Origin: Bacteroidales bacterium
Lineage (GTDB): Bacteria > Bacteroidota > Bacteroidia > Bacteroidales > F082
Assembly (NCBI GenBank): GCA_015491905.1
Contig: WGGC01000157.1
Coordinates: forward strand, 1 to 37,839
DNA: 37,839 bases
Direction: 5' to 3'
Shown: piece by piece, positions 3,098 to 35,260 of the stretch
How positions within the stretch are numbered: the stretch's first letter is position 1
How the letters are laid out: every line of letters starts with the position of its first letter
The notes under the pieces: model-generated
Databases searched by the model: none
Told to the model about the DNA's origin: nothing
The model's input: only the letters and a program-made list of their open reading frames with translations
Translations under genes and position numbers: made by a program

Positions 3098-3103
3098 AAA
3101 AAG

Positions 3104-3177
3104 CGGTCCGGACGGGACTCGAACCCGCGACCCCATGCGTGACAGGCATGTATTCTAACCAACTGAACTACCGGACC
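3104..3177 (-). tRNA. tRNA-Asp (GUC)
   Basis: The gene spans 74 nt without encoded CCA. The 7-bp acceptor stem pairs GGTCCGG with CCGGACC. The anticodon stem is CATGC/GCATG around CTGTCAC, giving anticodon GUC (Asp). The T arm contains the GGTTCGAGTCC block. The discriminator base is G, as expected for tRNA-Asp. It is transcribed on the minus strand from a well-formed promoter and followed by a terminator. Confidence 0.96.
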
Positions 3178-19634: not shown

Positions 19635-19786
19635 ATAATAATTTCTAATTACGTTTATCAAAAAGTGTAGTGTTAAAACAATTAACCAGTTTTAAAAAAA
19701 ATCAAATAAATTACCTCCGTAGTAATTAGAATATAAAATGAATAATGCGAATTATTAATGGTTAATCTCTGATTAATGTTGGATTT

Positions 19787-19930
19787 GCGGTAAGGATAGG
19801 AGCGGCAGCGAAGCCCTGTTATAAAGTTGTGAAGCCGGTGGAGGCGGGGCGACAACAGGAGCCACCGGAAACACCATGGCTGAACACTTTATAACAGGGC
19901 TGACTAAAGCGGATAGCCTGTTAAACCGCC
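19787..19930 (+). repeat. Structured G+C-rich intergenic element, copy A
   Basis: A 144-bp G+C-rich island in an A+T-rich spacer, one of three related copies. Helices: terminal GCGGT/ACCGC (19787-19791/19925-19929); a perfect 16-bp stem (19812-19827/19886-19901); AGCC/GGCT (19833-19836/19878-19881); GGTGG/CCACC (19837-19841/19862-19866); and GGC/GCC closing the conserved loop with GGCGAC. The shared 5' block AGCGGCAGC (19801-19809) and 3' block GACTAAAGCGGATAGCC follow the family pattern. It lies just past the ilvC terminator. Confidence 0.8.
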
Positions 19931-19943
19931 ATTAGGATAATAA

Positions 19944-19977
19944 AAAATCCCAACGCATAAATATGAATTGGGATTTT
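19944..19977 (-). terminator. Intrinsic terminator of the ilv operon
   Basis: AAAATCCCAA (19944-19953) pairs perfectly with TTGGGATTTT (19968-19977). On the minus strand a T-run follows directly. It lies 18 nt after the ilvC stop codon. Confidence 0.85.
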
Positions 19978-27503: not shown

Positions 27504-29807
27504 ATGTTAAAAATTCTCTTATTGGAAGATAATAAAAATGATGTAGAATTATTACGGGTAAATTTACTCAAACAAATTGATGAATTCTCAATTATTAACG
27601 TTGATAATGAAAAAGACTTTATTAGTAATTTACATAATAGTTCCAGTGATATAATTATTGCTGATTATCGCCTTCCTTCTTACTCCGGGTTAGAAGCATT
27701 GGCTTACAGGAATAAATATTATCCTACTTTACCTTTTATTATTCTTACCGGGTCTATGAATGAACAAATTGCTGTTTCTTGTATGAAAGCCGGCGCTGAT
27801 GATTATGTTTTAAAGGAACATATTAAAAGAATAGGTGCAGCCATTGAAACTGCTGTTCATATTAAAAAACTTGAGAAACAACAACTGGAGGCTGAACATA
27901 ACCTGATTTATGAGAAAGAGTTATATAAAAATTTATTTGTTTTAAGTCCGGTGGGATTGATTATTGAAGATAGTAAGGGTGTAATAATTGATGTTAATGA
28001 AGCAGTTTTAAAGACAACCGGATATTCCCGTAATGAGTTAATAGGAAAACATATTAGTATTTTTGAGCCTGAACATGATTTACAAAAGGTAAAGGAAAAT
28101 ATTGATAAGATAAATAACGGGGAGACGTTAAGTCTTGAAGTAGTCAGTATTGGAAAAAACGGAAGCCGTCATTACACGGAACTAACAGAAACAAAAATTA
28201 CTTTTCCGGGAGGTAGAACCGGGATACTTTCCATTAATAATGACATTACTCCAAGAAAAAAGATTGAAGAAGACTTATTGAAAAGTAATCAAAGTCTTGC
28301 AATGGCTCAGGAGATTGGAAATATTGGAAGTTGGGATAATGATCTTATAAATAACAAAATATATTGGTCTGATCAAACATTTAGGCAATTTGGTTTAGAT
28401 CCTTCTAAAGATAAGCCCTCTGACAAACTTTTTAAACAAAACATACATCCTGATGATTTGGAAAAAGTTGAACTGGCAATTGAAAAAACCTTTAAATCAC
28501 TGGAACCTTATGATATTAAGGTTAAGATGAGGCGGTCGGACGGCACAGTATGGTTTATGCATGCACACGGAAGAATTATCACAAATGATAAAGGGAAACC
28601 AATACGATTTATTGGCATCCAACAAGATATTACAGATATTGTAAAAAACACTAAAGAATTAATAAGAGCAAAAGAATCTGCAGAAGAAAGTAACAGACTA
28701 AAATCAGAGTTTCTTGCCAACCTTTCTCATGAAATTCGTACTCCAATGAATGGTATTATTGGCTTTGCGAGTTTGTTGGAGCAGGAAGAACTCCGTCAGG
28801 AAGAAAGAAAGAATTTTTCACAAATAATTATTAACAGCAGCAAGCAGTTATTAAGAATTATTGACGATTTAATAGAGATATCAAAATTGCAGACCCGGCA
28901 GGTGAAAACCTATGTTAAGGAGTTAAATATTGGGGATTTGCTTATAGAATTGTTTACTATATTTGAATTAAAAGGCAAATCTTCCGGAATATCCTTTTAT
29001 GTTAATAATGCATTAAAGCCAAATGAGCAGATTATAATTACAGATGGCAGTAAAGTTAAAAAAGTATTGGAAAATTTGCTGGAAAATGCTTTTAAATTTA
29101 CAAAAGAAGGAATGATTGAATTGGGTGTTGAAAAAAGGGAAAAGGAATTGGTTTTTTATGTTAAAGATTCGGGAATAGGGATAGAAAAAAATAAACAAGA
29201 ATTAATTTTCGAACGATTTTCGCAGGAAGAAAAGGAAATATCCAGAAAGTCCGGTGGATTAGGATTAGGATTGAGTATAGCAAAGGAAAATGTAAATTTA
29301 TTAAATGGAAAAATATGGGTAGAATCTGTTAAAGGTGAAGGATCTGCTTTTTATTTTGCATTACCTTTAGAAAAGAATAATGAAAATAAACCTGATTCGA
29401 CAGAAAAAACAGACGGTATTATAAAAGATACTGGAAAACAGGTGGTAGTAGTAGCCGAAGACGAAGAGGTTAACTTTCAGTATATTTCACTGTTATTAAA
29501 AAAATATTCTAAGCCCTTAACTGTATTACACGCTAAAAATGGTAAAGAGGCTGTTGATTTTTGTAAGTCTGAAACTAAAATCTCACTTATATTAATGGAT
29601 GTTAAGATGCCGGTAATGAATGGTTTGGAAGCAACAAAAATCATAAAAAAAATGTTTTCGGACTTGCCGGTTGTTGCACAAACTGCCTATACCAGGCCTG
29701 AAGACCGTGAGAGAGCTATAGAAGCCGGTGTTGATGAATTTATTTCCAAACCTTTTCAGAAAAAAGCTTTTTATGCACTGCTTGACAGGTTTCTGGATGA
29801 AAAATAA
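27504..29807 (+). CDS. Soluble hybrid histidine kinase (REC-PAS-PAS-HisKA-HATPase-REC)
   Basis: The 767-residue protein has an N-terminal receiver (1-120, Asp54, Lys104) and PAS 1 (about 135-255). PAS 2 with a PAC-like end (about 270-380) follows. The HisKA domain has His409 in LSHEIRTPMNG. The ATPase domain has N-box Asn528, G1 DSGIGI (555-560) and G2 GGLGLGL (584-590). The C-terminal receiver (645-765) has Asp699 and Lys749. No membrane helix is seen, so it senses a cytoplasmic signal. The order receiver-first suggests that another kinase controls it, perhaps with the adjacent single receiver. PAS ligands cannot be told. There is no output regulator nearby. Confidence 0.93.
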   Translation: MLKILLLEDNKNDVELLRVNLLKQIDEFSIINVDNEKDFISNLHNSSSDIIIADYRLPSYSGLEALAYRNKYYPTLPFIILTGSMNEQIAVSCMKAGADDYVLKEHIKRIGAAIETAVHIKKLEKQQLEAEHNLIYEKELYKNLFVLSPVGLIIEDSKGVIIDVNEAVLKTTGYSRNELIGKHISIFEPEHDLQKVKENIDKINNGETLSLEVVSIGKNGSRHYTELTETKITFPGGRTGILSINNDITPRKKIEEDLLKSNQSLAMAQEIGNIGSWDNDLINNKIYWSDQTFRQFGLDPSKDKPSDKLFKQNIHPDDLEKVELAIEKTFKSLEPYDIKVKMRRSDGTVWFMHAHGRIITNDKGKPIRFIGIQQDITDIVKNTKELIRAKESAEESNRLKSEFLANLSHEIRTPMNGIIGFASLLEQEELRQEERKNFSQIIINSSKQLLRIIDDLIEISKLQTRQVKTYVKELNIGDLLIELFTIFELKGKSSGISFYVNNALKPNEQIIITDGSKVKKVLENLLENAFKFTKEGMIELGVEKREKELVFYVKDSGIGIEKNKQELIFERFSQEEKEISRKSGGLGLGLSIAKENVNLLNGKIWVESVKGEGSAFYFALPLEKNNENKPDSTEKTDGIIKDTGKQVVVVAEDEEVNFQYISLLLKKYSKPLTVLHAKNGKEAVDFCKSETKISLILMDVKMPVMNGLEATKIIKKMFSDLPVVAQTAYTRPEDRERAIEAGVDEFISKPFQKKAFYALLDRFLDEK

Positions 29808-30486: not shown

Positions 30487-30554
30487 GAAAAAAGAAGATT
30501 TGTATTATTATATAATTTTTGTCGGGTTAGATAATATAAATATTTTGTGGATTT

Positions 30555-30729
30555 CAGGTAGGGGGGGAAGTGGCAGCCCGGAGCAGTAAAACAGAGATTG
30601 TACCCGGTGAGGCAGGGCGACCTGAGGAGCCCCTGAAAAACCGTTGGTACAACCTGTTTTACTGTGAGGACTATAACGTACCACCCGGTAGGGTTAGCGG
30701 CGGCTTTGTGCGCAGGAACCTAACCTGCC
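30555..30729 (+). repeat. Structured G+C-rich intergenic element, copy B
   Basis: A 175-bp element related to those at 19787 and 34941. Helices: terminal CAGGT/ACCTG (30555-30559/30723-30727); CAGTAAAACAG/CTGTTTTACTG (30584-30594/30654-30664); TTGTACC/GGTACAA (30598-30604/30646-30652); CGGT/ACCG (30605-30608/30640-30643); and GGC/GCC closing the loop with GGCGAC. The 5' block AGTGGCAGC is conserved and the 3' block reads GGACTATAACG. An extra GGTTAG/CTAACC hairpin (30692-30697/30720-30725) competes with the terminal helix. It lies 36 nt past the phosphatase gene's stop codon and fills the spacer to rdgB. Confidence 0.8.
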
Positions 30730-34940: not shown

Positions 34941-35114
34941 GCGGGTGCGGTGCCATACCGCAAGGCCAATTCAACCGCACCGGGCTGTTCGCTTGTAGTC
35001 AGCCCCGGTAGTATGTGTTCGGCCAGGCCGCATATCGCGGCTCCCTTGTCGCCACGCCTGCGCCGGCCTCTCAACATACTACCGGGGCTAAGCTACCACT
35101 TCCATCCCTCCCGC
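34941..35114 (-). repeat. Structured G+C-rich intergenic element, copy C
   Basis: A 174-bp element on the minus strand, related to those at 19787 and 30555. Helices: terminal GCGGG/CCCGC (35110-35114/34941-34945); a perfect 16-bp stem (35074-35089/35001-35016); GGCC/GGCC (35065-35068/35021-35024); CGGC/GCCG inside it, or the local hairpin GCCGC/GCGGC (35027-35031/35037-35041). The conserved blocks are GTGGTAGC, TGGCGACAAGGGAGCC and GACTACAAGCGAACAGCC. An extra GGTGCGG/CCGCACC hairpin precedes the terminal helix. It fills the 386-nt convergent spacer between rluD and the epimerase gene; nothing else is seen there. Confidence 0.8.
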
Positions 35115-35260
35115 AATATTATGTTATGCAATGGAGTCTTTTTAAAATTATAATTTAAATAAAAAGATAAATAGAGCAGGTCTTTTCTATAAATGTTGTA
35201 ATTGACTATTGCATACAGTATTAATATGTAAACTCGACTTTATAAAAATCCTGTTTACAA

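Follow-up and report, generated by a model that had tools for sequence, protein, structure and literature searches.

A multi-copy hairpin repeat of Bacteroidales that appears to be a G+C-rich long form of Flavo-1

The described family closest to the elements analyzed here is Flavo-1 (RF01705), an orphan Rfam family of the Bacteroidota that Rfam files as 'Gene; sRNA', with a model length of 76 and a gathering cut-off of 42 bits. In the excerpted text of Weinberg et al. 2010, it is entered for the Bacteroidetes as RNA 'y' and cis-reg 'n' (PMC2864571), and the portions of the open-licence literature on Flavo-1 that were accessible state no function for it and describe no long form. The available part of a study of F. 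psychrophilum places Flavo-1 matches sense or antisense of transcribed regions, with many outside them, while several 5' transcribed regions coincide with Flavo-1 matches (PMC9723704). A second point of comparison is provided by the REP elements associated with RAYT, which the sources, seen in extract, describe as a 20-40-bp palindrome (PMC3733652, PMC6006769); for RAYT subclass 2.6 of the Bacteroidetes, one of these extracts reports 'atypical secondary structures' on its flanks, which recur at other places in the genome (PMC6006769).

The window, meaning the whole stretch of 37,839 nucleotides analyzed here, is contig C157 (WGGC01000157.1) of a Bacteroidales genome, G000, of 3.02 Mb in 204 contigs. 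An earlier note made from the letters of the window had described three G+C-rich elements of one architecture in A+T-rich surroundings, and had taken them for a selected fold that might be a new RNA or a REP-like repeat. All three are confirmed at the positions it gave, share the architecture, and contrast in composition with their surroundings (mean G+C 0.58 for the elements vs 0.34 for the window). The covariance model used below, R1, has 146 positions and 32 pairs and was built from 19 aligned G000 copies. At E up to 1, it matches the window three times and at the three elements, with scores of 140.8, 110.7, and 104.3 bits that follow by construction because all three copies are among its training rows; the independent test of R1 is therefore the finding of further copies. 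The features of the window copies are as follows.

19785-19930, + strand: copy A, whole element (R1 140.8 bits; fold z -7.3)
19787-19791 and 19925-19929, + strand: helix P1 of copy A, GCGGT / ACCGC
19813-19826, + strand: 5' arm of stem P3 of copy A, GCCCTGTTATAAAG, the exact complement of 19887-19900
19848-19863, + strand: conserved apical loop P5 in the inner domain of copy A, GGC-GACAACAGGA-GCC
19887-19900, + strand: 3' arm of stem P3 of copy A, CTTTATAACAGGGC, pairing with the 5' arm
19931-19948, + strand: A-rich 3' flank of copy A, ATTAGGATAATAAAAAAT, an enrichment found family-wide
30553-30729, + strand: copy B (R1 110.7 bits over 30553-30698)
within 30553-30729, + strand: extra hairpin of copy B, GGGTT...AACCT, preceding the 3' strand of P1
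34941-35116, - strand: copy C (R1 104.3 bits over 34976-35116; fold z -6.2)
within 34941-35116, - strand: extra hairpin of copy C, GGTGCGG...CCGCACC, preceding the 3' strand of P1

The folds of copies A and C are far stronger than those of dinucleotide shuffles (z -7.3 and -6.2), and that of copy B is less clearly so (z -2.3, with 4 of 200 shuffles equally good). The element is ~146 nt long and closes with an outermost helix, P1, of the GCGGC/GCCGC type. Within it lies P2, consisting of 3+2 pairs, the two-pair helix J of which sits within a conserved two-sided internal loop that reads AGYGGMAGC or similar on the 5' side and GACTA/GACTTG..ARCG on the 3' side; P2 and this loop together make up the Flavo-1 core. 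The hypervariable stem P3 follows and is capped by an inner domain, P4/P5, with the P5 loop GGC-GACNNNAGGA-GCC, in which GGCGAC and GGAGCC are invariant across the 19 aligned copies. The extra hairpin that precedes the 3' strand of P1 occurs in copies B and C and in some others. The earlier view that the unpaired parts are conserved holds in part, but the Y of AGYGG in fact pairs with the R of ARCG (columns 20/161), a contact that is C-G, U-A, or U-G in 76/76 copies. AGCG was likewise thought to be present in every copy; copy B carries AACG because this R pairs with the Y of AGYGG.

The search with a covariance model that the earlier note had proposed turned up many further copies. While blastn with copy A yields 16 matches in G000, R1 at E <= 0.001 finds 76 copies, 19 of which had been used for building it. 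R1 copies are present in all 12 genomes of the genus that were searched, G000 included, at 3 to 76 per genome, and 17 of 40 relatives are matched, namely, the 12 of the genus and G012, G019, G025, G032, and G038, which lie outside it and hold 1-5 copies each. Several copies lie within ~170 nt of a contig end (L117, L140, L114, and the loci L049, L050, and L054), so assemblies may be interrupted at strong hairpins and the copy counts may be too low. In the alignment of the 76 copies, which was fitted to the structure and thus favors the pairing figures, standard pairs occupy 90.8% of 2407 cells vs 65.3% after shuffling, double changes that keep pairing occupy 621 cells vs 187, and all 32 modelled pairs show at least one double change. 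Controls slid by 1-3 columns pair in only 32.5-43.1%. The 76 copies, their spread through the genus, and the covariation relative to shuffles bear out both a selected fold and a repeat family. A GTDB pattern scan returned 26 stretches, and R1 identifies one of them as a full element (95 bits), L077 from Bacteroidales bacterium S010_72. The remaining matches of that scan (at most 20.3 bits over ~40 model positions) look like chance, as apparently do the two stretches from an IMG/VR scan (17.9 and 14.8 bits). No blastn match was found for copy A in phages or for locus L234 in phages and plasmids.

It is clear from the base pairs of P3 that one strand folds. With strand-symmetric scoring, 89% of P3 pairs are Watson-Crick, and among the others G.U outnumbers A.C by 56 to 7 (p 1.4e-10), where a double-stranded palindrome would give equal counts. 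The ratios of G.U to A.C favor the same strand in P1 (30:5), J (3:0), and P5 (10:1) and do not discriminate in P2 (4:5) and P4 (6:8). The outcome of this test would be the same for RNA and for single-stranded DNA. P3 is also the part of the element that retains pairing and not sequence. Its length averages 13.7 with a range of 6-26 under ungapped scoring, and across the 76 copies its arms pair with their own partner at a mean of -25.9 kcal/mol vs -13.8 for swapped partners, the own partner ranking first of 76 in 38 of them. Mean identity is 0.40 and 0.44 for the two P3 arms, 0.66 for both outer parts, and 0.59 for the inner domain. An extreme case is the pair L026 and L031, the cores of which are 99% identical and the P3 stems 38% (shuffled arms reach 54%, gaps allowed). 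Their P3 stems are unrelated in sequence, yet each is largely paired within itself. For the 23 pairs with a core identity of at least 0.9, the mean P3 identity is 0.66, so most of these fit ordinary drift. Flanking DNA gave no signal as a source of P3 in five of six comparisons, and the sixth, the 3' arm against the upstream flank, was not significant (p 0.012) once corrected for six tests.

Searched against Rfam at the gathering thresholds, the window has a single match, a tRNA-Asp (GTC) gene at 3103-3177 on the - strand. In that search, RF01705 does not match copies A, B, or C, and at relaxed thresholds it matches neither copy A (E up to 5) nor copy C (E up to 10). Weak relaxed matches of other families on copies A and C look like chance, and no Rfam family covers the elements in either the gathering search of the window or the relaxed searches of A and C; the direct match to a catalogued family that the earlier note had named as a possible refutation was thus not found. 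The relation to Flavo-1 emerges from the relatives. Three of the loci found with R1 outside the genus score 42.8 (G025), 36.8 (G019), and 31.4 bits (G038) on RF01705, five other loci searched alongside them have no match to it at E up to 1, and in alignments of the R1-found relatives to RF01705 the 3+2+2 arrangement of helices and the letters of the loop coincide. The long form occurs in two orders: among long forms found at the class level in another order, 9 of 11 loci score 37-63 bits on RF01705, two of them over the cut-off, and the long forms of g38, one genus of the class-level set, carry a closely similar inner loop, RGC-GAC..GGA-GCY. Published text on Flavo-1 indicates that g38 probably belongs to the Flavobacteriaceae. 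These intermediates join long and short forms and show the outer domain to be homologous to Flavo-1, making the window family a G+C-rich long form of a Flavo-1 superfamily.

The two models nonetheless recognize different sets, R1 matching 3 of 10 Flavo-1 loci. RF01705 finds 17 matches in G038 and one copy over the cut-off in G000 (43.2 bits, contig C200), which has no R1 match and is also missed by RF01705 under stricter filters. In a survey of 395 genomes of the phylum under such stricter filters, with at most 8 (R1) and 11 (RF01705) candidates scored per genome, R1 matched 33 genomes and RF01705 matched 56, of which 45 were over the cut-off, and many were matched by both; g38 contributes 18 of the genomes matched by R1 and 23 of those matched by RF01705. 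The window family resembles Flavo-1 in its 3+2+2 outer helices, the conserved AGYGG.A / ARCGNANAGC internal loop, the variable distal stem, the A-rich 3' flank, which is present in the Rfam consensus as well, and its occurrence in multiple copies in the Bacteroidota, where short and long forms co-occur. In contrast, it is ~70 nt longer, is G+C-rich in the window genus, carries P3, P4, and P5 where RF01705 has a short single distal hairpin, and has the P4/P5 on P3 that RF01705 lacks, and copies A, B, and C fall below the gathering score. The designation as a new RNA consequently holds only in part: the window copies lie outside the RF01705 model, but their outer domain is homologous to Flavo-1 through the intermediates.

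The positions of copies are rarely shared. At the site of copy A, none of nine congeners has an element (locus L170 ends ~200 nt past the gene), and at the site of copy C none of 11 loci does (two end at a contig end, leaving nine informative); the far-side gene order often differs at both sites, and the copy B site has no good orthologues. The broader comparison covered 2.0 of 3.27 Mb of one congener, G004, in which 32 matches at E <= 0.01 represent 31 elements, one of them split over two stretches. Copies of G000 were taken as testable when a neighbor within 700 nt was at least 60% identical in G004. Four of 34 testable copies, at three sites, have a G004 element on the same side and 30 do not, while an element on the far side was found for 0 of 44, and a looser count gives 5 of 62. 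High-scoring copies were not shared less often, which would have indicated age structure (p 0.53). Shared positions are therefore real but rare, and differential loss could be the cause of the low sharing. A precise empty site was not found. In two g38 genomes, of which 40 kb each was compared, 91-97% identity extends over ~29 kb, and one Flavo-1-like stretch lies outside the aligned part.

Ten shared sites allowed 12 pairwise comparisons of compensatory change, each using the fold of the first sequence and an alignment by sequence, so that broken pairs are overcounted within P3. Compensatory pairs outnumber broken ones in three: L131/L153, upstream of adenosylhomocysteinase, has 15 compensatory, 0 one-sided, and 6 broken pairs, L050/L069 has 10, 0, and 5, and L138/L051 has 15, 3, and 12. 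In the other 9 of 12, broken pairs equal or exceed compensatory ones, as in L233/L241 (6 compensatory vs 7 broken) and L234/L235 (0 vs 4). At the aconitase, valS, release factor 1, DUF4301-like, and L142/L059 sites, the partners are 49-57% identical, little above unrelated members, and since partners this unlike resemble random members, independent arrivals are possible there. In six shared groups, the element lies in sense orientation ~40-250 nt upstream of the aligned gene; L059/L142, L053/L139, and L120/G004 are not sense-upstream. By Pfam, the genes downstream at shared sites include release factor 1, adenosylhomocysteinase, a class I tRNA synthetase, and a response regulator, and by reading there are one aconitase-like gene and one of no assigned function.

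The explanation that we favor, at somewhat better than an even chance, is that of a repeat mobilized in trans that folds as a single strand, resembling REP elements in behavior without being a member of the REP/RAYT system, with some copies retained. Copies would arise by copying in trans through a folded single strand, either ssDNA or RNA, with a putative enzyme recognizing the conserved internal and apical loops, and new copies would land in promoter-bearing intergenic DNA. Most would be lost again and a minority kept at orthologous places, where two or three appear old enough for compensatory changes to outnumber broken pairs. It may be that some copies have a local function, most probably exerted at the DNA level beside promoters.

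When ORFs are called mechanically, 62 of the 76 copies are clear of any ORF of at least 80 aa, and 11 of the 14 that overlap one do so with frames of 83-126 aa. In the frame of the element, the upstream and downstream neighbors are oriented (-,+) in 22 cases, (+,+) in 18, (-,-) in 16, and (+,-) in 11, with nine incomplete. Two sorts of neighbor protein recur most, each at 4 of 76 copies: one consists of frames running through the element, and the other is a family represented in the window by ORF 27504-29807, which Pfam identifies as a sensor histidine kinase. Neither has the look of a mobility gene carried along with the element. The motif TAnnTTTG, which we take to be the Bacteroidota promoter motif, reads away from the element within 130 nt on the 3' side of 29 of 76 copies and on the 5' side of 17. 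Fewer of the 76 copies have the motif pointing into them, six from upstream on the + strand and nine from the 3' side. Flanks were counted for 71 of the 76 copies, the 3' strand of P1 not being found exactly in five; A outnumbers T by 529:211 at positions 4-15 after P1 and is level with it at positions 23-34 (314:316) and on the 5' side (315:307). Within 12 nt after the element, A-runs of at least 5 occur in 38 of 76 copies and T-runs of that length in 1 of 76 (+) and 3 of 76 (-). All five pairs of elements less than 300 bp apart, on contigs C107, C156, C173, C196, and C68, are head to head (-/+), as are two more pairs 1.1 and 1.6 kb apart. On reading, the members of the close inverted pairs looked like different subtypes.

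That the copies are multi-copy trans-acting small RNAs, each an RNA gene with its own P3 as the Rfam label of Flavo-1 would have it, is distinctly unlikely. Such RNAs would account for a strand-specific fold that tolerates G.U and for some compensatory change at fixed places, and the filing of RF01705 as 'Gene; sRNA' agrees with them, but TAnnTTTG upstream of 6 of 76 copies is no more than the control of 9 of 76, the single T-run on the + strand leaves no intrinsic terminator, and positions are mostly unshared with the one congener. Other promoters or read-through would be compatible with the scarcity of one promoter motif, and the six sense-upstream groups would also fit a regulatory RNA. The data from F. 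psychrophilum, in the part available, cut both ways: several 5' transcribed regions coincide with Flavo-1, which agrees with such an RNA, but the Flavo-1 matches do not track transcribed regions (PMC9723704). The evidence from strand, promoters, and position implies that the sRNA label of Flavo-1 is probably wrong, and placement suggests that Flavo-1 is a spreading repeat rather than an ordinary small-RNA gene.

Next in plausibility, and likewise distinctly unlikely, is a regulatory or architectural element at the DNA level with little current mobility, in which the folded strand or an extruded hairpin binds a protein and acts on promoters or insulates. Promoter motifs reading away on both sides, the A-rich 3' flank, and the copies at shared places ahead of housekeeping genes, some of which show compensatory change, are what such an element would predict. 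It is harder to reconcile with 30 of 34 testable positions being unshared with G004, with copy numbers of 3 to 76 among congeneric genomes, and with mixed orientation, and a double-stranded cruciform would not favor G.U over A.C.

Mobilization as a REP element by RAYT, a Y1 HUH transposase, is very unlikely, and of the earlier REP-like label it is the behavior that stands and the membership that does not. The copies are dispersed, mostly intergenic, sometimes in close inverted pairs, and have no recognizable promoter of their own, and the high copy number and the 5/5 close pairs in -/+ arrangement are compatible with RAYT activity, as are Y1_Tnp matches in 12/12 congeneric genomes and a diverged R1 copy 0.74 kb from a Y1 remnant, L017. 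However, with Y1_Tnp matches in 34 of 40 relatives, its presence says little; G000 has just two partial matches, and G038, with its 17 Flavo-1 matches, has no Y1_Tnp match. The earlier note had advised looking for a linked Y1/RAYT transposase, and none of the nine Y1 loci searched with R1 is flanked by the element: eight have no R1 copy within 2 kb (for L228, only ~0.2 kb could be searched on one side), and the flanks of the six that were read (five in G004, and L018) carry other repeats or hairpins. The RAYT-like genes and remnants of L017, L018, and G004 have their own flanking repeats, distinct from the element, such as CGCTCTCGCAAGTCTGTGACT at L018. The 'atypical secondary structures' of Bacteroidetes subclass 2.6, as extracted, are in keeping with a RAYT, and abundance, dispersal, extragenic position, folding of one strand, and occasional close inverted pairs are shared with REP/BIME elements as described in the portions of the sources at hand (PMC3733652, PMC6006769). 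In contrast to the 20-40-bp REP palindrome, the window family is ~146 nt long, with multiple helices that covary and conserved internal loops, and flanks none of the nine Y1 loci searched. A reverse transcriptase as the driver can also be set aside, as PF00078 (RVT_1) has no match in G000 and matches in 2 of 12 congeneric genomes. MITEs are small, non-coding elements with many copies and low sharing of positions. The window family is also small, non-coding, and multi-copy, with rarely shared positions, but unlike MITEs it has no known parent element and no signal of a target-site duplication (4.55 vs 4.52 +/- 0.10, p 0.37, in 71 of 76 copies), and its fold is kept by compensatory change.

A cis-acting leader of the downstream gene, whether riboswitch or attenuator, is the least probable reading. 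In its favor, the six shared groups lie in sense ~40-250 nt upstream of a gene, and Flavo-1 matches coincide with several 5' transcribed regions of F. psychrophilum in the accessible text (PMC9723704). Against it, the 74 cases with a known downstream gene divide into 43 with that gene in sense and 31 with it in antisense, the downstream genes have no common theme, L059/L142, L053/L139, and L120/G004 do not fit, and mRNAs starting at the promoter motif 3' of the element in 29/76 copies would not contain the element.

Within the favored explanation of a repeat copied in trans, a broader and unlikely possibility is that Flavo-1 and the long form constitute one class of mobile element that moves through a folded single strand by means of an enzyme that is neither a RAYT nor a reverse transcriptase, with P3 rewritten on both arms at copying. 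The rewriting of P3 is suggested by L026 and L031, with their nearly identical cores and dissimilar stems. If true, a mobile element of a new kind would have been filed as an sRNA since 2010. The long form adds a second conserved module to Flavo-1 and supplies dozens of copies per genome for comparison, making it possible to test which molecule folds, which protein may bind the loops, and how both arms of a stem might change while the rest stays nearly identical. A further sequence was seen in association with some copies: at L115 (contig C38 of G000), a TA-flanked 263-nt sequence with the terminal inverted repeats ACCTGAGTTC.../...GAATTCAGGT lies inside the 5' part of the element, and the same inner end of this sequence adjoins the element copies of L114 and L117.
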